Assembly (NCBI RefSeq): GCF_017311415.1
Contig: NZ_JAEKIS010000005.1
Span: forward strand, 62,001 to 126,000
Source of the DNA: Salipiger abyssi
Lineage (GTDB): Bacteria; Pseudomonadota; Alphaproteobacteria; Rhodobacterales; Rhodobacteraceae
DNA length: 64,000 bases
Direction of reading: 5' to 3'
How positions within the stretch are numbered: the first letter of the stretch is position 1; every line of letters begins with the position of its first letter. The notes beneath the pieces were generated by a model. The model saw only the letters and a list, made by a program, of their open reading frames with translations, searched no databases and was not told where the DNA came from. Made by a program: the position numbers and the translations under genes. Shown here piece after piece: positions 11,648-21,200 of the stretch.

Positions 11648-12817
11648 TCAGCCCACCTGACGCCCGTGGCTCCAGACGCCGCGAATGACCGGCACGCCGT
11701 CGAGATGCGCGACGCGCACCAGATCGGCGAAAAGCCCCTCGGCGATCACGCCCCGATCGTCGAGCCCGGTGGCCCGCGCCGGCGTGGCCGTGACCGTGGC
11801 AATCGCGCGCGGCAGATCGCCCCAGAGATCGGCGAGCTGGAACGCCGCCGTCATCAGCGCCGAGGGCACATAGTCCGAGGACAGGATGTCGAGCAGCCCC
11901 TTCCCGGCCAGTTCCGCCGCCGCCACATTGCCGGAATGCGAGCCGCCCCGGATCAGGTTCGGCGCGCCCATCATCACCGCGATGCCATGATCGTGACAGG
12001 CCTGCGCCGCCTCCACCGTGGTGGGAAACTCCGCCAGGCGAATGCCATGGCCTGCGCTCACCGCCACATGCTCGGCGGTTGTGTCGTCATGGCTGGCCAG
12101 CACCGCGCCCAGCCGCTTTGCCGCCGCCACAGCACCCGCCTCATGCGCGGCGCCCAGCCGCGCGCGCAGCGACTTCTGATGCGCCACATGGTCGGCGAAT
12201 TCGCTCTCCGACAACCCGTGCTTGCCGCAGACATAATCCTTCAGCTTCGTAAGATCGCGGAACTGCCGCTGCCCCGGCGTGTGATCCATGATCGACAGGA
12301 TGCCCACCCGGTCGGCCTCGCCGAACTCCGCCAGCTCGTCGAGCAGCGTTTCCGAACAGATCTCGGCGCGCAGGTGCAGGAAATGGCTGATCCTCAGCAT
12401 GCCTTTCGCCCGCGCCTGCATCAGTTCGCTGGCCAGCGCGCGGGCGTATTTGCGGTAATCGGTGCGCGCCTCGACAACCGAGCCCGCGCGCATCGCGTCG
12501 AACACCGTGGTGATGCCCACAGAGGCCAGCTCGCCGTCATGCGCCAGGATCGCCGCCGCATGCGGCCAGTCGACCTTGGGGCGCGGCCGGATATGGCGTT
12601 CGAGATTGTCGGTGTGCAGCTCGATCAGGCCGGGAATGATCAGATCGCCCTCGCAATCCACAGCCCCCGCCGGCGCTGCGCCCTGCTCCACCGCCGCGAT
12701 CCGCCCGTCGCGGATCAGCACGCTGCCCCGGATCACCTCGCGCTCCAGCACGATCCGCGCATTGGCCAGCGCCAGCTCGCCCGTTGCCTGGATGTGGCCC
12801 ATACTCATCTCACCCAT
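11648..12817 (-). CDS. phnM: RPnTP diphosphatase PhnM, copy 1
   Basis: A 389-residue amidohydrolase-fold enzyme of the C-P lyase pathway. It releases pyrophosphate from alpha-D-ribose 1-phosphonate 5-triphosphate. The metal-binding start LIIPGLIELHTDNLERH, the later SHDDTTAEHV, MMGAPNLIRGGSHSGN and LSSDYVPSAL are all PhnM hallmarks. It is on the same strand as phnG-N but is separated from phnN by an opposite-strand gene, so it has its own promoter. A second PhnM lies at 20019-21200. Start codons at 12808 and 12802 are alternatives to 12817. Confidence 0.92.
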   Translation of the reverse strand: MGEMSMGHIQATGELALANARIVLEREVIRGSVLIRDGRIAAVEQGAAPAGAVDCEGDLIIPGLIELHTDNLERHIRPRPKVDWPHAAAILAHDGELASVGITTVFDAMRAGSVVEARTDYRKYARALASELMQARAKGMLRISHFLHLRAEICSETLLDELAEFGEADRVGILSIMDHTPGQRQFRDLTKLKDYVCGKHGLSESEFADHVAHQKSLRARLGAAHEAGAVAAAKRLGAVLASHDDTTAEHVAVSAGHGIRLAEFPTTVEAAQACHDHGIAVMMGAPNLIRGGSHSGNVAAAELAGKGLLDILSSDYVPSALMTAAFQLADLWGDLPRAIATVTATPARATGLDDRGVIAEGLFADLVRVAHLDGVPVIRGVWSHGRQVG

Positions 12818-12861
12818 GTCCTGCCCTTTGCTCCGTCATCATTCCGTGACATGAGACGCTT

Positions 12862-13557
12862 ATGTCCGCGCCCATGACCGATTATTCCCGTTTCGCGATC
12901 TACTACGCGCCCGAGCCCGGGCCCTTTGCCGAGTTCTGCGCAAGCTGGCTCGGCTGGGATGCCGCAACCGGTACGCTCCGCGCCCATCCCGAGCTGCCCG
13001 GCCTGCCGCGCCCGGTGGCCGAGATCACCGCCACGCCGCGCAAATACGGCTTTCACGGCACGCTGAAGCCGCCCTTCCGCCTCACCGGCAGCCGCGCCGC
13101 GCTGGAGGCCGATCTGGCCGCGCTCGCCGCCCGGCTTGCCCCCGCCGAGATGCCGGGGCTGACCCTGTCGCGGCTCGGCTCGTTCCTCGCGCTGACGCCC
13201 GAGGGCGACACCACGGCCCTCGCCGCGCTCGCCGCCGAGACGGTGCGCGCACTCGACACGCACCGCGCCCCGCCCACCGAGGCCGAGCTGGAGCGCCGCC
13301 GCAAGGCGCGGCTCTCGCCCGCGCAGGAAGACAACCTCGCGCGCTGGGGCTATCCGTATGTGATGGAGGAGTTCCGCTTCCACCTCACCCTGTCGGGCCG
13401 GCTCTCCGCCGAGGATGCCACGCAAACCGCCGAGGCCCTGGAGCCGGTGCTGGCGCCGCTGCTGCCTCGCCCCTTCCGGGTCGGCGCGCTGGTGCTCTTT
13501 GGCGAGGCACCGGACGGGCGGTTCCACATCCTGCACCGCTACGTCCTCGCCGGCTGA
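12862..13557 (+). CDS. Putative phosphonate metabolism protein, DUF1045 (2H phosphoesterase-like)
   Basis: A 231-residue soluble protein of the family known only as phosphonate-operon protein (DUF1045). Two H-x-T-L motifs are visible, HGTLK (around residue 70) and HLTLS (around residue 173). This is the signature of 2H phosphoesterases, which open cyclic phosphates. No phnP (5-phosphoribosyl 1,2-cyclic phosphate phosphodiesterase) is found in the window, so this protein is a candidate for that step. That is inference. It is divergent from phnM (44 bp gap), and its 3' end overlaps the 3' end of phnN by 19 nt. A second in-frame ATG at 12874 is possible. Confidence 0.85.
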   Translation: MSAPMTDYSRFAIYYAPEPGPFAEFCASWLGWDAATGTLRAHPELPGLPRPVAEITATPRKYGFHGTLKPPFRLTGSRAALEADLAALAARLAPAEMPGLTLSRLGSFLALTPEGDTTALAALAAETVRALDTHRAPPTEAELERRRKARLSPAQEDNLARWGYPYVMEEFRFHLTLSGRLSAEDATQTAEALEPVLAPLLPRPFRVGALVLFGEAPDGRFHILHRYVLAG

Positions 13558-14081
13558 AGCAGCGCAAGGAGCCGCGTCACGGCCTCGTCGAGCGCGCCGG
13601 AATTGTCGATCTCATGCACCGCCAGCCCTTCGGGCAGCGCCGCGCCCTGACGCGCCAGCCTGCGGGCGATGTCCTCGACCGTCTCGCGCCCCCGGTCGGC
13701 AAGCCGCTCCGCCAGAACCTCCGGTCGCGCGGTGACATGCAGCGCCGCCATGCCGGGAAACCGCGCCATCGCCTGCGGCAGGACCGCGCGCGACAGGTTG
13801 CAGAGCACCGGGTGCCCCTGCGCCAGCACCGTGTCGACCGTGGCCGGCACCCCGTAGCGCAGCCCATGCGCGGCCCAGTGCAGCGCGAAATCCCCCGCCG
13901 CCAGCCGCGCGTCGAATTCGGCCTCGCTCACGCCGTCGAAATCCTCGCCGCCGGCGTTGGCCGGGCGCGTGATCACGCGCCGCGCCAGATGCAGCCCGGG
14001 CAACCGCGCCGCCGCCGCTTCCATCAGCGTGTCCTTGCCGGCACCCGAAGGCCCGACCACCGCGTAAAACCGCCCCGTCAT
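13539..14081 (-). CDS. phnN: Ribose 1,5-bisphosphate phosphokinase PhnN
   Basis: A 180-residue P-loop kinase (guanylate kinase-like) that makes PRPP from ribose 1,5-bisphosphate, the last salvage step of the C-P lyase pathway. The Walker A motif is GPSGAGKDT near the N-terminus; RRVITRPANAGGEDF and the lid region with LADRGRET follow. ATG 14081 overlaps the phnL stop by 4 nt, giving translational coupling at the end of the phnGHIJKLN operon. Confidence 0.93.
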   Translation of the reverse strand: MTGRFYAVVGPSGAGKDTLMEAAAARLPGLHLARRVITRPANAGGEDFDGVSEAEFDARLAAGDFALHWAAHGLRYGVPATVDTVLAQGHPVLCNLSRAVLPQAMARFPGMAALHVTARPEVLAERLADRGRETVEDIARRLARQGAALPEGLAVHEIDNSGALDEAVTRLLALLQPART

Positions 14082-14761
14082 GCCGCCTGCGCCGGTGCAA
14101 AGCCGCTCACATCCACCTCGCGGTCGCAAACCTGCGCCCGCGCCTCGGCATCGTGAAAGATCCCCACGATGGCGGCGCCGCGCGCCTTGGCCTCCGCGAT
14201 CAGCGCCAGCACCACCGCGCGGTTGGTGGCGTCGAGGCTGGCCGTTGGCTCGTCGAGCAGCATCGCCGGAAACAGATGCGCAAAGCCGCGCGCGATGTTC
14301 ACCCGCTGCTGCTCGCCGCCTGAAAAGGTCGTTGGCGACAGCGTCCAGAGCCGCTCCGGCACATTGAGCCGCGCCAGCAGATCCCGGGCGCGTGCCTCTG
14401 CCTCAGCATGTGAGCCGCCCGCCGCCAGCACCGGCTCGGCCACCACATCGAGCGTCGGCACCCGTGGCACCACGCGCAGGAACTGGCTGACATAGCCCAG
14501 CACCTCGCGCCGCATCCTCAGGATCTCGCGCGGCTCGGCCCGGGCGACGTCCACATCGCCCACCCGGATCGCCCCGCCGCCGGCCAGGTAATTGCCATAG
14601 ATCATCCGCATCAGCGTGGATTTGCCCGCGCCGGAATTGCCCACCAGCGCCACGCATTCCCCCGGCGCCACCGAGAGCGCCGCCCCCGCCATCACCGGGA
14701 TCACCGCATCGCCCTGATTGTGCAGGACAAAGCTCTTCGACACATCGCTCAGCTCGATCAT
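14078..14761 (-). CDS. phnL: C-P lyase ABC-type ATPase PhnL
   Basis: A 227-residue ABC ATPase required by the C-P lyase core; it is not a transporter. Walker A GNSGAGKST, signature FSGGEQQRV and Walker B AMLLDEPTASLD are all present. The start at 14761 has an AGAGAAGAAG ribosome site that overlaps a repeat element filling the 65-bp gap to phnK. Confidence 0.93.
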   Translation of the reverse strand: MIELSDVSKSFVLHNQGDAVIPVMAGAALSVAPGECVALVGNSGAGKSTLMRMIYGNYLAGGGAIRVGDVDVARAEPREILRMRREVLGYVSQFLRVVPRVPTLDVVAEPVLAAGGSHAEAEARARDLLARLNVPERLWTLSPTTFSGGEQQRVNIARGFAHLFPAMLLDEPTASLDATNRAVVLALIAEAKARGAAIVGIFHDAEARAQVCDREVDVSGFAPAQAA

Positions 14762-14766
14762 GATCT

Positions 14767-14822
14767 TCTTCTCTTTGCAAAATACGCGGGGGAGCGCGCC
14801 CCGGCGCGCGAGGGGCAACGCC
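14767..14822. repeat. Dispersed intergenic element, copy 1 (phnK-phnL gap)
   Basis: On the plus strand: TCTTCTCTTTGCAAAATACG, then a GC-rich tail with AGCGCGCCCCGGCGCGCGA and GGGGCAACGCCCC, both self-complementary. The first part recurs at 32775-32794 and the tail recurs at 34560-34597. It supplies the phnL ribosome site on the minus strand. Confidence 0.6.
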
Positions 14823-14826
14823 CCAT

Positions 14827-15597
14827 TCAGACCTGCAACACGCTCGATACAAGCAATTGCGTATAACCGTGCTGCGGATCGTCCAGCACCTGATCGGTGA
14901 GCCCGGTCTCGACCACATGGCCGCCCTTCATCACCATCAGCCGGTCGGCAAGCAGCCGCACCACCGCCAGATCGTGGGTGACAATGATGGCGCTCAGCCC
15001 CATCTCGCGCACCAGCCCGCGCAGAAGATCCAGCAGCCGCGCCTGCACCGAGACATCAAGCCCGCCGGTGGGCTCGTCCATGAACACAAGCCTCGGGCCG
15101 GTCACCAGATTGCGCGCGATCTGCAAGCGCTGTTGCATGCCACCGGAAAAGGCGCGCGGGCGGTCGTCCACCCGGTCGGCGGCGATCTCCACCCGGCCCA
15201 GCCAGTCAACCGCCTGCTCGCGGATCTGACCGTAATGCCGGGCGCCCACCGCCATCAGCCGCTCGCCCACATTGGCCCCGGCACTCACCCCCATGCGCAG
15301 CCCGTCGCGCGGGTTCTGATGCACAAAGGCCCAGTCGGTGCGCCCCAGCATCCGCCGCGCCGGTTCCGACATGGTCAGCACATCGCGCGGCCCCTCGGCG
15401 CGGGTGTCGAAGATCACCTCGCCCGCATCGGGGCTCAGATGCCCGGCAAGGCAGCTCAGCAGGGTCGATTTGCCCGAGCCGCTCTCGCCCACGATCCCCA
15501 TCACCTCGCCGGGCCAGAGATCGAAACTCACATCGCCGCAGCCCAGCCGCGCGCCATAGCGTTTGGTAACGCCCTTCACCTGCAACAGCGGTGTCAT
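14827..15597 (-). CDS. phnK: C-P lyase ABC-type ATPase PhnK
   Basis: A 256-residue ABC ATPase that docks on the PhnGHIJ core complex in the known system. It has Walker A GESGSGKST, a PhnK-type Q-loop region (DWAFVHQNPRDGLRMGVSAG), signature FSGGMQQRL and Walker B LVFMDEPTGGLD. Its start overlaps the phnJ stop by 4 nt. Confidence 0.94.
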   Translation of the reverse strand: MTPLLQVKGVTKRYGARLGCGDVSFDLWPGEVMGIVGESGSGKSTLLSCLAGHLSPDAGEVIFDTRAEGPRDVLTMSEPARRMLGRTDWAFVHQNPRDGLRMGVSAGANVGERLMAVGARHYGQIREQAVDWLGRVEIAADRVDDRPRAFSGGMQQRLQIARNLVTGPRLVFMDEPTGGLDVSVQARLLDLLRGLVREMGLSAIIVTHDLAVVRLLADRLMVMKGGHVVETGLTDQVLDDPQHGYTQLLVSSVLQV

Positions 15598-16472
15598 GCC
15601 AGTTCCTCCGCCAAATCCTCGCCCGAAAGCCGCCCGCGATGCCCTTCGGCCCGCCGCGTAGAGCAGAAATCCGTGTCCGAGCAGACGAACATCCGCCCGC
15701 CTGCGTCGTCCACGATCACCTCGTCAAGATAGCTCGTCGCGCAGCCGCAGAGATCGCAGGGGTGATCGGCCTTACTGGCCTCAAACGGGTAATCCTCGAA
15801 ATCGAGGCTCACGACCTGCGTATAGGGCGGGATCGCATATATCCGCTGTTCGCGCCCGGCGCCGAAAAGCTGGACCGCGGCGCTTTCCAGCCGCGGGTTG
15901 TCGAATTTCGGGATCGGCGACGGGTCCATCACGTAGCGCCCCTCCACCTGGACCGGATAGGCATAGGCGGTGGAGATCTCGCCGTTATGGGCGATGTCCT
16001 CGTAGAGTTTCACATGCATGAGCCCGTATTCCTCGAGCGCGTGCATCTTGCGGGTCTCGGTCTCGCGCGGTTCGAGAAAGCGCAGCGGCTCGGGGATCGG
16101 CACCTGATAGACGAGGATCTGCCCTTCGGCGAGCGGCGTCTCGGGGATGCGGTGGCGGGTCTGGATGAGGCTGGCCTCCTCAGTATGTTCGGTCACCGCC
16201 ACCTGCGCGGTGCGCTGAAAGAACTTGCGGATCGAGACGGCGTTTGTGGTGTCGTCGGCGCCCTGGTCGATGACCTTGAGCGTGTCCGCAGGGGTCAGGC
16301 AGGCGGCGGTGACCTGCACGCCGCCGGTGCCCCAGCCATAGGGCATGGGCATCTCGCGGCTGGCAAAGGGCACCTGATAGCCGGGGATCGCCACGCCCTT
16401 GAGGATCGCACGGCGGATCATCCGCTTGGTCTGCTCGTCGAGATAGGCGAAATTATAGGCTGTCTCAGTCAT
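15594..16472 (-). CDS. phnJ: C-P lyase catalytic subunit PhnJ
   Basis: A 292-residue radical-SAM-type enzyme that breaks the carbon-phosphorus bond of ribose-1-phosphonate 5-phosphate. The cluster region is intact: C239, C242, C264 and C270, plus C244, in DHPCDLCGC and CSDTDFCSTRR. The spacing matches the E. coli ligands C241, C244, C266 and C272 with a shift of two. The N-terminal YAYLDE-like opening (YNFAYLDEQTKRMIRR) is also typical. It overlaps the end of the DUF559 gene by 8 nt, so that insertion preserved coupling. Confidence 0.95.
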   Translation of the reverse strand: MTETAYNFAYLDEQTKRMIRRAILKGVAIPGYQVPFASREMPMPYGWGTGGVQVTAACLTPADTLKVIDQGADDTTNAVSIRKFFQRTAQVAVTEHTEEASLIQTRHRIPETPLAEGQILVYQVPIPEPLRFLEPRETETRKMHALEEYGLMHVKLYEDIAHNGEISTAYAYPVQVEGRYVMDPSPIPKFDNPRLESAAVQLFGAGREQRIYAIPPYTQVVSLDFEDYPFEASKADHPCDLCGCATSYLDEVIVDDAGGRMFVCSDTDFCSTRRAEGHRGRLSGEDLAEELA

Positions 16473-16806
16473 CGTTCAGCGCCTCTTCGATGGTTGTCAG
16501 CGCGCCCGCGAGATCGGCACAGACCGCGTCTTCGGCCAGCCACAGCACGCGCCAGCCGCGCGCCCGCAGCCCGGTATGCATCTCCTGCGCCTCGGTGCGC
16601 AGGGTGGCGCTGTCGTAAAGCGCCACCGCCAGCCGCCTCTTTGCGCAGACAAACGGCAGCAGCCACGGCCCCACCGGCGCCTGGCGCCGGAACTTCGCAC
16701 CGCCCAGTTGCCGCCGGCGCAGCGCCTGCCAAAGCAAAGCCTCCGCCGGCGTCGGCACCTGCCGCAGGATCCGCGCGTCATAGGTCTGGAAAAAGCTCTG
16801 CCGCAT
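16465..16806 (-). CDS. DUF559 (Vsr-like endonuclease fold) protein inserted in the phn operon
   Basis: A 113-residue protein of the DUF559 family, which shares the very-short-patch-repair endonuclease fold. The visible family pattern is LRQVPTPAEALLWQALRRRQLGGAKFRRQAPVGP, then VCAKRRLAVALYDSATLRTEAQEMHTGLRARGWRVLWL. The usual acidic catalytic position (family E/D in the second block, normally ...AVELDG...H) reads AVALYDSA here, so activity may be lost. It sits between phnI and phnJ, which are normally adjacent, with twin hairpin repeats on the phnI side. It is probably a mobile or domesticated module, and a role in phosphonate metabolism is unlikely. Confidence 0.85.
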   Translation of the reverse strand: MRQSFFQTYDARILRQVPTPAEALLWQALRRRQLGGAKFRRQAPVGPWLLPFVCAKRRLAVALYDSATLRTEAQEMHTGLRARGWRVLWLAEDAVCADLAGALTTIEEALNDD

Positions 16807-16845
16807 GGCCCGGCCTCCGCTGCCGCTCTCCATCCCCCTCCCAAA

Positions 16846-16940
16846 CCCTCCCCCGATCCGGGGGAGGGCCCGACAGCAGGCTGACGGCACCAAGGTTAAC
16901 GCCGGGTTTCCAAAGCTCCCTCCCCCGGCACGGGGGAGGG
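16846..16940. repeat. Paired hairpins next to the DUF559 gene
   Basis: Two copies of the same 9-bp arms, CCCTCCCCC / GGGGGAGGG, at 16846-16868 (loop GATCC) and 16918-16940 (loop GGCAC), separated by 49 bp. They lie in the 161-bp gap between the phnI stop and the DUF559 start. A REP-like element accompanying the DUF559 gene is the simplest reading. Confidence 0.7.
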
Positions 16941-16967
16941 CTGGGGAGGGGGACAGCGACACGCACG

Positions 16968-18053
16968 TCATTCCGCCGCCTCCCGCATCGCGCCTGTCGC
17001 GCCGGCCCGCATCCGGCGCACCAGTTCGAGCTCGGACTGGAAATCCACGTAATGCGGCAGCTTGATATGTTCGAGAAAGCCGCTCGCCTGGATATTGTCC
17101 GCATGCGCCAGCACGAATTCCTCGTCCTGCGCCGGCGCGCCGAGATTGTCCTCGCCCAGCTCCTGCCAGCGCAGCGCCCGGTCGACCAGCGCCATGGAGA
17201 TCGCCTTGCGCTCGGTCTGGCCGAAGACCAGCCCGTAGCCACGGGTGAATTGCGGCGGCTCGGTTTTCGAGCCGGCAAACTGGTTCACCGTCTCGCATTC
17301 GGTCAGGGTCACCTCGCCGATGCAGATCTCGAAGCCCAGCTCGGGCACCTCCATCTCCACCTCCACCGCGCCGATGCGCAGCTCGCCGACAAACGGGTGG
17401 TTGCGCCCGTAGCCGCGCTGGGTGGAATAGGCCATGCCCAGCACGAACCCCTCGTCGCCCCGCGTCAGCGCCTGCAAGCGCAGCGCCCGGTTGGCCGGGT
17501 AGTCCATCGGCTGCCGCGTCATGTCGGGCGGCACCGCCTCGCTCACCGCCTCGTCCTGGATCAGCCCGTCCTTGTTCAGAAATTCGGTGATCCGCGGCAT
17601 CGGCGCCTCCGAAGGCGCGCTCTCCGGCGCCTCCGGCAACTCTCCATCCGCCGCAAGTTTGAAATCCAGCAACCGGTGGGTGTAGTCGAAGGTCGGCCCC
17701 AGCACCTGCCCGCCCGGCGCGTCCTTGAAGGTCGCGCTGATGCGGCGGTCGCAGCGCATGGCGCCGGTGTCGACGGCACGCGACGCACCGATGCGCGGCA
17801 GCGTCGTGCGATAGGCACGGATCAGAAAGATCGCCTCGATCAGATCGCCCCGCGCCTGCTTGATCGCCAGCGCCGCCAGATCGGGATCGTAAAGCGAGCC
17901 CTCGGCCATCACCCGGTTCACCGCGAGGCTCATCTGCTCGCGAATCTGATCCAGCCCCAGCTCGGCCACCGCCCGATCGCCGCGCCGCTCTTCGGCCAGC
18001 CAGTCATGCGCCGCGTCGATGGCCCGCTCGCCGCCTTTCACCGCCACATACAT
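16968..18053 (-). CDS. phnI: C-P lyase subunit PhnI (nucleosidase/phosphonate ribosylation)
   Basis: A 361-residue core subunit of C-P lyase. With PhnG, H and L it makes ribose 1-phosphonate 5-triphosphate from ATP and a phosphonate. Characteristic stretches include MYVAVKGGERAIDAAHDWL at the start, then AYRTTLPRIG, RRISATFKDAPGGQVLGPTFDYTHR and LPHYVDFQSELELVR. Its start overlaps the phnH stop by 1 nt (TGATG). Confidence 0.94.
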   Translation of the reverse strand: MYVAVKGGERAIDAAHDWLAEERRGDRAVAELGLDQIREQMSLAVNRVMAEGSLYDPDLAALAIKQARGDLIEAIFLIRAYRTTLPRIGASRAVDTGAMRCDRRISATFKDAPGGQVLGPTFDYTHRLLDFKLAADGELPEAPESAPSEAPMPRITEFLNKDGLIQDEAVSEAVPPDMTRQPMDYPANRALRLQALTRGDEGFVLGMAYSTQRGYGRNHPFVGELRIGAVEVEMEVPELGFEICIGEVTLTECETVNQFAGSKTEPPQFTRGYGLVFGQTERKAISMALVDRALRWQELGEDNLGAPAQDEEFVLAHADNIQASGFLEHIKLPHYVDFQSELELVRRMRAGATGAMREAAE

Positions 18054-18625
18054 CAGAGCGCCTCCACAATGGTTGTGCGCGGCAGCGCCGCGATCCGCTC
18101 GCCCGCCGCAAGGAAACAGTCCCAGCCCAGCGGGAACAGCGCCCGGTTGGCATGGAAGGCACGGGTCTCGGGCAGCGACAGAAACGCCGCCTCGCGGATC
18201 CCCGGCCCGGTCAGCCGCGCCCCCTCCGCCGCCAGCCCGGGCAGCTCGGCGATCAGCGTCACCGAGCGGTCGGGATAGTCCGGCGTGCCGATCTGATAGG
18301 CGTCGAGCGGCTTCAGCGCCTCCCAGCCGCCCAGCGCGAACATCGCCTCGCCCGGCCCCACCAGCGGCGCGCCGATATGGAAGGCCACCCAGTCGCGCAC
18401 CGCCGCGCCATCGTGCCCCGGCGCTAGATAAAGCGGCGTCTCGCGATCACAGAGCGTCAGCAGCAGCACCGAGGCCGCCACCGAGACTGGCGCGGGCGCC
18501 GCTGCGCCGCTCACCGTGTAAATGGTTCCCGGCCGTGCCATGGCCTCAAGTGCGGCGCGAAAGGCGCGCGCCGCCTCGACCGGCGCCTCGGCGAACCCAC
18601 CGGAAAGCACGTCGTCCCGCATCAC
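18053..18625 (-). CDS. phnH: C-P lyase subunit PhnH
   Basis: A 190-residue subunit of the C-P lyase core. The family opening (GGFAEAPVEAARAFRAALEAMARPGTIY) and the internal TLCDRETPLYL and FALGGWEALKPLDAYQIGTPDYPDRSVTLI are present. It is in frame-overlapping arrangement with phnG (4 nt) and phnI (1 nt), consistent with stoichiometric production of the complex. Confidence 0.93.
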   Translation of the reverse strand: MMRDDVLSGGFAEAPVEAARAFRAALEAMARPGTIYTVSGAAAPAPVSVAASVLLLTLCDRETPLYLAPGHDGAAVRDWVAFHIGAPLVGPGEAMFALGGWEALKPLDAYQIGTPDYPDRSVTLIAELPGLAAEGARLTGPGIREAAFLSLPETRAFHANRALFPLGWDCFLAAGERIAALPRTTIVEAL

Positions 18626-19077
18626 GCCTCCCCCCGCACCATGGTGAAGAAATCCACCTTCGTCGCCGCCGCCCTGGCCGCCCGCGCCCGGCGCGTCTCG
18701 GCCTCCGCCGCCTCCAGCGGCGCCAGCACCGCCGCGCGCAGCTCTTCGGCCCGGTCGCCCTGCATCAGCGCATCGACCAGCGCCGCGCGCTCCGCATGGG
18801 CCTTGTCGCGGCCCTGCACATAGGCGTGCCCGACCTCGCCGCTCTCCAGCCGCAGCGCGCAGCGCGTCACCGTCATCTCGCCCAGATTGAACGGCGCGCC
18901 GGTGCCGCCCATGCGGCCCCGCACCATGACACCGCCCACTTCCGGCACGCGCAGCCAGTCAAAGCCCGGCAGCTCGCCGAGCCCCTCGAGCCGCGCCGCA
19001 AGCTGTGACGCCGGCGCCCGGGCCAGCAGCCCCATCCAGCCCTTGCGGGCCTCGTTTCCGACATCCGTCATGCTCAT
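18622..19077 (-). CDS. phnG: C-P lyase subunit PhnG
   Basis: A 151-residue first gene of the C-P lyase operon. RKGWMGLLARAP and WLRVPEVGGVMVRGRMGGTGAPFNLGEMTVTRCALRL are typical of PhnG, which forms a pair with PhnI in the core. A Pho-box candidate lies 87 bp upstream, and a PhnF operator candidate lies 16-49 bp upstream. Confidence 0.93.
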   Translation of the reverse strand: MSMTDVGNEARKGWMGLLARAPASQLAARLEGLGELPGFDWLRVPEVGGVMVRGRMGGTGAPFNLGEMTVTRCALRLESGEVGHAYVQGRDKAHAERAALVDALMQGDRAEELRAAVLAPLEAAEAETRRARAARAAATKVDFFTMVRGEA

Positions 19078-19230: not shown

Positions 19231-19950
19231 ATGCCCCGCACCCCGATCTGGAAATCCATCGCCGCCGAGCTGGAGGGCGAGATCGCCCGCACCCTGTACC
19301 GCGCCGGCGACAAGCTGCCGACCGAGGCGGAGCTTTCCGCGCGCTTCGGCGTCAACCGCCACACCGCCCGCCGGGCGCTCGCGGATCTCGCCGAGCGCGG
19401 GCTGGTGCACAGCCGCAGGGGCGCCGGCGTGTTCGTGACGGCAACGCCGCTCGATTACGCCATTGGCGCGCGCGTGCGCTTTCACCGCAACATCCGCGCC
19501 ACCGGCCGGCTGCCGGAAAAGCGCGTGCTGCGGGTCGAGACCCGACCCGCCGACACAGCCGAGGCCGAGGCGCTCGCCCTGCCGCCGGGCGCGCCGGTCA
19601 TCGTCTACGAGGGGCTGTCGCTCGCCGAAGGCGCCCCCATCGCGCATTTCTTCAGCTGCTTTCCCGCCGAGCGCCTGCCCGGCCTCGCCGACACGCTGCG
19701 CGAGACCTCCTCGGTGACCGAGGCGCTGCGCCGCAACGGCGTGACCGATTACACCCGCGCCCGCACCCGGCTCACCGCCGAGGCCGCGAGCCCCACCCAG
19801 GCGCTGCATCTGGCCACCCGCGAGGGCGCGCCGCTCCTGCGCAGCGAGAGCGTCAATATCGACCCGGAGGGGCAGCCGGTGGAATACGGGCTGACCTGGT
19901 TCGCCGGCGACCGGGTGGCGCTGACCGTCGCGCCGGAGGACGCCTCGTAA
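19231..19950 (+). CDS. phnF: GntR/HutC-type regulator PhnF
   Basis: A 239-residue regulator. It has an N-terminal winged helix-turn-helix (KLPTEAELSARFGVNRHTARRALADLAERGLVHSRRGAGVFV) and a C-terminal UTRA ligand domain. YAIGARVRFHRNIRATGR and SESVNIDPEGQPVEYGLTWFAGDRVALTV match PhnF. It is divergent from phnG, so it probably represses the C-P lyase operon and itself. phnM2 follows 68 bp downstream on the same strand. Confidence 0.9.
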   Translation: MPRTPIWKSIAAELEGEIARTLYRAGDKLPTEAELSARFGVNRHTARRALADLAERGLVHSRRGAGVFVTATPLDYAIGARVRFHRNIRATGRLPEKRVLRVETRPADTAEAEALALPPGAPVIVYEGLSLAEGAPIAHFFSCFPAERLPGLADTLRETSSVTEALRRNGVTDYTRARTRLTAEAASPTQALHLATREGAPLLRSESVNIDPEGQPVEYGLTWFAGDRVALTVAPEDAS

Positions 19951-20018: not shown

Positions 20019-21200
20019 ATGACGGTCTTGCTTCCTCCCCTGCGCCTGACCGGCGCCACCATCCTCAGCGGCGGCGCGCTGCAAAAGCGCTCGCTGGTGG
20101 TTGCGGATGGCCTGATCACCAAAGGCCCCCTGCCCGAGGTGGACATGTCGGGCTATCTGATCCTGCCCGGCATCATCGACCTGCATGGCGACGCCTTCGA
20201 GCGCCATATCGCACCGCGCCCCTCTGCCCCCTTTCCCATCGAGGCCGGGCTGCGCTCGACCGACCGCGAGGCGGCAGCGCACGGGGTGACCACCGCCTGG
20301 CTGGCGCAATGCTGGAGCTGGGAAGGCGGCATGCGCAGCCCGGATTTCGCCGAGGCCGTGATGGCGGCGCTCGATGCCTACCGGCCCCGCGCACTCACCG
20401 ATCTGCGCCTCCAGATCCGCTGCGAGACCCATATGCCCGAGACCCGCGCGCGTCTTCTGGCGGCGATCCGGCGGCACGGCATCGGCTATGTGATCTTCAA
20501 CAACCACCTGCCGGAAACGCTGGCGGCGGTGGAGAGCGCGCCGCTGAAGGTCGCCGGCTGGGCCGAGCGCGGCGGGCGCAGCGTCGACGAGTTCGTCGCC
20601 GTGCTGCGCGCGGCCGAGGAGCAGCGGCGCGACGTGCCGCGCCATCTCTGCGCGCTGGCCGAGGCCTTCGACGCCATGGAGGTGCGCTATGGCAGCCATG
20701 ACGATCCCGATGGCGAGACCCGCGAATATTACCGCATCATCGGCGCCCGCATCGCCGAGTTTCCGATCACGGCGGCAGCGGCGAAACTGGCGCGCGCCTG
20801 CAACGATCCGGTGCTGATGGGCGCACCCAATGTGGTGCGCGGCGGCTCGCAATCGGGCAATGTCTCGGCCACGCATCTGGTGGCGCGCGGGCTCTGCGAC
20901 GCGCTGGTGTCGGATTATCACTACCCCTGCCTGGCGCAGGCGGCCTGGGTGCTGGTGGATCGCGGTTTGCGCACGCTGCCGCAGGCCTGGGACATGATCT
21001 CCCGCGTGCCCGCCGAGATCATGGGGCTCGCCGACCGGGGCTCGCTGGAGCGCGGCAAGCGCGCGGATTTCGTGGTGGTGAACGAGGCCACGCGCGAGAT
21101 CGAGGCGACGGTGAGCGGCGGGCGGCTGGCCTATCTTGCGGGCGAGGCCGGGTCACGGCTGGTTGGCGCCATGCAGAGCACGCGAATGGCGGCGGAATAG
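20019..21200 (+). CDS. phnM: PhnM-type diphosphatase, copy 2
   Basis: A 393-residue second PhnM paralogue in the same locus. The metal-binding start reads LPGIIDLHGDAFERHIAPRP; copy 1 has LHTDNLERHIRPRP, so the HxD ligands are kept but the residue between differs. Later motifs YGSHDDP, LMGAPNVVRGGSQSGN and LVSDYHYPCL are intact. It is likely active and may differ in substrate or regulation. It lies downstream of phnF and ends before a hairpin-rich gap. Confidence 0.9.
   Translation: MTVLLPPLRLTGATILSGGALQKRSLVVADGLITKGPLPEVDMSGYLILPGIIDLHGDAFERHIAPRPSAPFPIEAGLRSTDREAAAHGVTTAWLAQCWSWEGGMRSPDFAEAVMAALDAYRPRALTDLRLQIRCETHMPETRARLLAAIRRHGIGYVIFNNHLPETLAAVESAPLKVAGWAERGGRSVDEFVAVLRAAEEQRRDVPRHLCALAEAFDAMEVRYGSHDDPDGETREYYRIIGARIAEFPITAAAAKLARACNDPVLMGAPNVVRGGSQSGNVSATHLVARGLCDALVSDYHYPCLAQAAWVLVDRGLRTLPQAWDMISRVPAEIMGLADRGSLERGKRADFVVVNEATREIEATVSGGRLAYLAGEAGSRLVGAMQSTRMAAE

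Follow-up and report, generated by a model that had tools for sequence, protein, structure and literature searches.

The DUF1045 protein encoded in the phn locus of Salipiger abyssi is very probably a 2H phosphoesterase that performs the PhnP step of the C-P lyase pathway, the opening of 5-phosphoribosyl 1,2-cyclic phosphate (PRcP). The window mentioned below is the whole stretch of DNA analysed, 64,000 nucleotides long. The replacement of PhnP is already known as a proposal, since Martinez 2013 (PMC3840354) put forward the 2H gene rcsF as a PhnP analogue and later papers proposed DUF1045; the rcsF of the phosphonate papers was taken to be DUF1045. The published idea was strengthened here, not proven. 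The distribution of the two enzymes in 135 genomes, a DUF1045-PhnN fusion and a 2H-fold model were added to it.

A Rhodobacteraceae fosmid carrying its 2H gene and without phnP was reported to let an E. coli delta-phnHIJKLMNOP strain grow on methylphosphonate (PMC3840354). A survey of 54 operons, as quoted in a 2023 review, found PhnP in 27 and rcsF in 16 without phnP. DUF1045 was named as the putative enzyme in an Aminobacter paper, after an earlier review, and the same idea was repeated in a 2017 paper on marine isolates. In a Phaeobacter strain, a table of proteins under P stress lists DUF1045 beside PhnI, J, L and M (PMC10132767). The cyclic phosphate is described as building up in E. coli phnP strains (PMC3463581). 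An assay of a purified DUF1045 enzyme was not found among the open-licence papers searched.

The DUF1045 gene and its locus

The DUF1045 gene (12862–13557, + strand) encodes 231 aa, predicted to form a 5-phosphoribosyl 1,2-cyclic phosphate phosphodiesterase. The first-pass annotation described the gene as embedded in the phn locus, and it indeed sits between phnM (11648–12817, − strand; TIGR02318, 450.3 bits) and phnN, the ribose 1,5-bisphosphokinase gene (13539–14129, − strand; TIGR02322, 210.9 bits), on the strand opposite to both. The ends of DUF1045 and phnN overlap by 19 bp, and the start of DUF1045 is 44 bp from the start of the phnM ORF. The other genes on the − strand are phnL (14078–14818; TIGR02324), phnK (14827–15597; TIGR02323), phnJ (15594–16472; PF06007), phnI (16968–18053), phnH (18053–18625; TIGR03292) and phnG (18622–19077; TIGR03293), and the phnF regulator gene (19231–19950; TIGR02325) is on the + strand.

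The locus had been described as having every core and uptake function, and this was borne out. NCBIfam models recognized the products of phnC, D, E, E2, F, G, H, K, L, M and N, all above their cut-offs; PhnJ was recognized by Pfam. No NCBIfam match was found for phnI at the threshold used, and its name comes from position and cross-matches. A hexapeptide transferase (TIGR03308) was also part of the full locus by NCBIfam. As had been noted, phnP was absent from the window: the PhnP model (TIGR03307) matched nothing there even at E ≤ 10, the DUF1045 protein included.

Other features of the locus were observed. A DUF559 gene (16465–17298, − strand; domain at about 16477–16782) lies between phnI and phnJ and splits the core C-P lyase genes. 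A second phnM-like gene (20019–21200, + strand) follows phnF, and the order that was surveyed separately has several loci where the same phnM paralogue directly precedes DUF1045 and phnN. Among the best 80 of 593 loci, the nearest named relatives of the window PhnJ were from Salipiger. Elsewhere in the genome is another C-P lyase cluster, of divergent sequence and with the genes phnF-G-H-I-J-K-L-M (L035, G000:C7:142502-143299); phnN, DUF1045 and PhnP were unmatched within the 19 kb taken there. Divergent PhnJ copies of this kind were seen in five other surveyed genomes.

The divergent phnM-DUF1045 spacer of 44 bp (12818–12861) contains a weak copy of TGTCACA-N4-TGTGACA, which resembles a variant of the Pho box. 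The copy agrees at 10 of 14 positions, a score reached by about 3% of resamples, and no match with three or fewer mismatches was present in the window spacer. In the divergent phnM/DUF1045 spacers of relatives, many from Rhodobacteraceae-like loci, 20 of 77 agreed at no fewer than 12 of the 14 positions, with 0.0007 per spacer expected from first-order Markov resamples; this enrichment is only descriptive, because the pattern was drawn by eye from the same spacers and many rows are related. The motif was given no weight, since it is enriched in the relatives but weak in the window.

Family membership and predicted fold

The window protein scored 251.4 bits against TIGR03223, "putative phosphonate metabolism protein", just over the curated cut-off of 248.95, and this was the sole NCBIfam model matched at E ≤ 0.001. 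Against PF06299 (DUF1045) the score was 183.4 bits (E 3.8e-54; cut-off 24.3). The Pfam models PF13563 and LigT_PEase were matched more weakly.

The window protein was aligned with 97 of 136 non-redundant DUF1045 proteins (alignment A2; the copy L025 and two fusions were among those left out). The two H-x-T-L motifs reported in the first-pass annotation were present and near-invariant in the homologues. The first is HGTL at residues 65–68 (13054–13065, + strand), and the second is HLTL at residues 174–177 (13381–13392, + strand). H65, T67 and H174 were identical in 98 of 98 aligned sequences, so the motifs are not due to chance; residue 176 was threonine in 95 and serine in 3. R10 was also identical in all 98. 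The segment between the motifs (13264–13356, + strand) is a candidate 5-phosphate site. It carries R135, R145 and R146, conserved in 92, 84 and 93 of the 98 rows, and G163, Y164 and P165, conserved in 98, 97 and 96. The three arginines are candidates for 5-phosphate binding.

The three-dimensional structure of the window protein was predicted with AlphaFold2 from the 98 sequences, with a mean pLDDT of 96.8. The best fold matches in the PDB were 2H phosphoesterases: YjcG (Z 15.3, VIA), LigT (Z 13.4) and the Arabidopsis Appr>p cyclic phosphodiesterase (Z 13.1). Foldseek gave E 6.7e-6 for the predicted model against YjcG. A PDB sequence search found no close relative of DUF1045; the single sequence gave one match at E 0.95, and the profile gave one match, 2fyh, at E 0.35, which is labelled a 2'-5' RNA ligase-like protein in the fold search. 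The two H-x-T/S motifs, together with the predicted fold, suggested that the window protein belongs to the 2H superfamily.

Proposed reaction

In the proposed reaction, DUF1045 would bind PRcP, H65 and H174 would most likely provide general acid-base catalysis of the attack by water, and T67 and T176 would hold the phosphoryl group. The attack would cleave the bond to O2 and yield alpha-D-ribose 1,5-bisphosphate, which PhnN would then phosphorylate to PRPP. In a modelled substrate complex of LigT, His125 is reported to activate water and His43 to protonate the leaving group. By analogy, H174 may activate the water and H65 may protonate the leaving group. The substrate of DUF1045, the regiochemistry and the individual residue roles are what we infer.

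Distribution of DUF1045 and PhnP

The surveys covered Pseudomonadota. In the first draw of 396 genomes, PhnJ was over the cut-off in 108, with a PhnJ fragment in G040 uncounted. A strong DUF1045 match (> 100 bits) was found in 91 of the 396, 80 with PhnJ and 11 without; four weak matches of 19–38 bits (G165, G219, G334 and G302, all PhnJ-less) were not counted, and would raise the 11 to 15. PhnP was sought in the 108 PhnJ genomes and the 11 PhnJ-less DUF1045 genomes. It was over the cut-off in 26, all with PhnJ and none with DUF1045. Accepted PhnPs in the surveyed genomes scored at least 296 bits and the highest match below the cut-off scored 111 bits, which gives a clear gap. In the window's class, all 75 PhnJ-bearing genomes had DUF1045 and none had PhnP above the cut-off. 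In 14 control genomes, PhnJ and PhnP were over the cut-off in E. coli only, and DUF1045 was found in none.

The second draw comprised 299 genomes of one order, 32 of them with PhnJ (5 shared with the first draw). DUF1045 alone was found in 22 of these, PhnP alone in 7, both in 1 and neither in 2. Both loci with neither enzyme were interrupted by contig ends, so the gene may just be missing from the assembly. In the union of 135 PhnJ-bearing genomes, 98 had DUF1045 only, 32 PhnP only, 1 both and 4 neither (Fisher p 1.8e-25 for the exclusion, with kinship ignored). Co-occurrence, which the first-pass annotation had proposed to survey, was thus rare. In the sole genome with both (G631), PhnP is in the phn locus and DUF1045 lies by a second phnM on another contig. 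Among genomes with PhnJ, DUF1045 is thus found instead of PhnP, and the independent events are few.

The first-draw genomes with PhnJ and neither enzyme, G305 and G308, belong to one family, and contig ends do not explain their loci. By eye, the place beside phnN in G308 holds short repeats (L038, 3880–4480); the G305 locus is L037. G146, a genome of the same genus, has kept phnP.

The independence of the pattern was examined on trees of PhnJ and DUF1045, built by quick searches with SH-aLRT support only. On the PhnJ tree (78 sequences from fetched loci, covering part of the 135 genomes, with two contig-end loci carrying no label), the DUF1045/PhnP label needed two changes. PhnP follows two PhnJ lineages and DUF1045 follows all others, and each enzyme mostly moves along with its PhnJ locus. 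Only about two swaps are therefore supported, and Fisher p-values overstate the independence. Taxonomy alone was considered as the cause of the exclusion, but both enzymes were found within one order and even within one family, f87, where one locus has PhnP (L175) and three have DUF1045 (L176–L178). In the order of the second draw, 7 of 8 PhnP genomes lacked DUF1045.

Gene placement and fusion with PhnN

The best 80 of 593 named PhnJ loci, whose titles point almost entirely to Rhodobacteraceae-like or Rhizobiales-like bacteria, were scanned for the locus alone, some being cut by contig ends. DUF1045 was present in 66 of these 80, no PhnP match over 100 bits was found in them, and the arrangement phnN, antisense DUF1045, phnM occurred in 57. 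One of the scanned contigs (L136) is filed under Enemella evansiae, an actinobacterium, and its PhnJ is 83% identical to the Rhodobacteraceae-type-locus query; the sequence is probably a contaminant or was transferred very recently.

Six genomes of the window's family that carry PhnJ have DUF1045 outside the phn locus, elsewhere in the genome. The DUF1045 tree was built from 61 of 65 proteins (four repeats or a fragment set aside; L032 had no ORF). Five of the six off-locus copies grouped with the phn-linked copies, and that of G372 grouped with the stand-alone copies, with modest support.

DUF1045 and PhnN formed one reading frame in 3 of 399 genomes, from two genera of family f108. Two of the fusions, of 425 and 427 aa, scored 231–232 bits against TIGR03223, below its cut-off, and matched the PhnN model above its own. 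In the third, the match spans 3–419 with no internal stop. No mention of such a fusion was found in the open-licence literature. The substrate of PhnN is given as ribose 1,5-bisphosphate, the product of PhnP (PMC3463581). The fusion is thus in keeping with the proposed step and with a retained 1-phosphate. It would also serve directly in a one-tube assay.

DUF1045 without C-P lyase

Eight of the 11 PhnJ-less DUF1045 genomes had no PhnN over the cut-off. In the other three, phnN adjoins DUF1045 and phnM, with no C-P lyase core. Seven stand-alone copies from PhnJ-less genomes were aligned, and six of them keep R10, H65, T67, a basic residue at 69, R135, R146 and H174. The eighth, the unaligned L025, is a second DUF1045 copy in G378 that has lost both catalytic histidines and is likely dead or repurposed. 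In addition, phnM and DUF1045 were seen together in small clusters, in some cases joined by phnN or phnF and in no case by the C-P lyase core (L034, L024, L026, L022 and L192), and PhnJ was absent from four of their five genomes.

Since DUF1045 occurs in 11 PhnJ-less genomes, replacing PhnP may not be the family's only job: either these copies are leftovers or the family has a wider role. PRPP breaks down spontaneously to PRcP. A less likely account holds that the basic role of DUF1045 is to clear PRcP whatever its origin; some C-P lyase loci would have recruited this enzyme and others PhnP. A stand-alone DUF1045 would then clear PRcP in genomes without C-P lyase, and the pocket residues kept in six of seven stand-alone copies are consistent with this. 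Against this, PhnN is missing from most of these genomes, where the product would have to be used in some other way, and the stand-alone copies may instead be leftovers. Nothing on the breakdown of PRPP to PRcP was found in the open-licence literature.

It is improbable that DUF1045 is a helpful but dispensable enzyme that has a different cyclic phosphate as its substrate or removes a side product; 2',3'-cyclic nucleotides, or ribose 1,2-cyclic phosphate that escapes from the pathway, would be examples. The PhnJ-less carriers, the few PhnJ-bearing genomes with neither enzyme and the several cyclic phosphates reported as substrates of 2H enzymes would agree with such a side role. However, DUF1045 is near-universal where PhnP is absent and is fused to PhnN in some genomes, and the growth reported for the E. 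coli phnH-P deletion with the phnP-less fosmid (PMC3840354) also argues against it.

Search for PhnP and other candidates in the genome

The first-pass annotation had asked whether phnP lies elsewhere in the genome. The assembly searched (5.2 Mb in 75 contigs, with a completeness rating of 100%) gave no match to TIGR03307 above the cut-off of 272.25; the best match scored 54.2 bits. Together with the rarity of co-occurrence, this absence supports DUF1045 as the PhnP replacement.

The best match, over positions 1–249, is a Lactamase_B_2 metallo-beta-lactamase (L036 7001–7798; G000:C5:165006), whose gene lies behind a TatD-like gene, TatD being named by eye. There is only a slight chance that this protein performs the PhnP step and that DUF1045 does something else. 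Of the 27 genomes in the window's family that have PhnJ, 26 had a match of this kind at E ≤ 1e-8, and phnP is reported, by KEGG number, for all seven Marivita genomes (PMC8774927). However, the score is far under that of any accepted PhnP, and the gene is outside the phn locus. Matches of similar score were seen in PhnJ-less relatives, among them 5 of 6 PhnJ-less DUF1045 carriers of the window's family, and 34 of the 80 PhnJ-bearing DUF1045 genomes (G372 and 33 others) had none at E ≤ 1e-8. Labels of "phnP" in such genomes may go back to this gene, perhaps including those in the Marivita paper.

It is hardly credible that PRcP is opened here by a PHP-domain phosphoesterase of the PhnPP type. 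Three PHP matches were found in the genome, and a PHP protein is listed in the Phaeobacter P-stress table (PMC10132767), but the one stand-alone ORF (326 aa) scores as a CehA/McbA family metallohydrolase (97.7 bits) on a different contig from the phn locus. The other two matches fall within frames of 1175 and 1579 aa, which from their length are probably DNA polymerase III.

If DUF1045 does perform the PhnP step, one missing C-P lyase step would be filled for many bacteria in a pathway that is a route from methylphosphonate to methane. The annotation "DUF1045" would gain a function, and generic metallo-beta-lactamases would no longer be called phnP.

Comparison with known systems

The window protein matched the TIGR03223/PF06299 family over its whole length and in the same phn context, and nothing notable differed. 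With the 2H phosphoesterases LigT, YjcG and the Arabidopsis cyclic phosphodiesterase, the last reported to open a ribose 1,2-cyclic phosphate, DUF1045 shares the predicted fold (Z 13–15) and the two H-x-T motifs, at an identity of 10–18%. The two histidines are 109 residues apart in DUF1045 and 82 in LigT (His43 and His125), and DUF1045 has conserved arginines between them. Compared with PhnP (TIGR03307, the E. coli phosphoribosyl cyclic phosphodiesterase), DUF1045 has the same predicted reaction and the same place in the pathway. The folds differ: PhnP is a metallo-beta-lactamase protein, whereas DUF1045 is predicted to be a 2H phosphoesterase.
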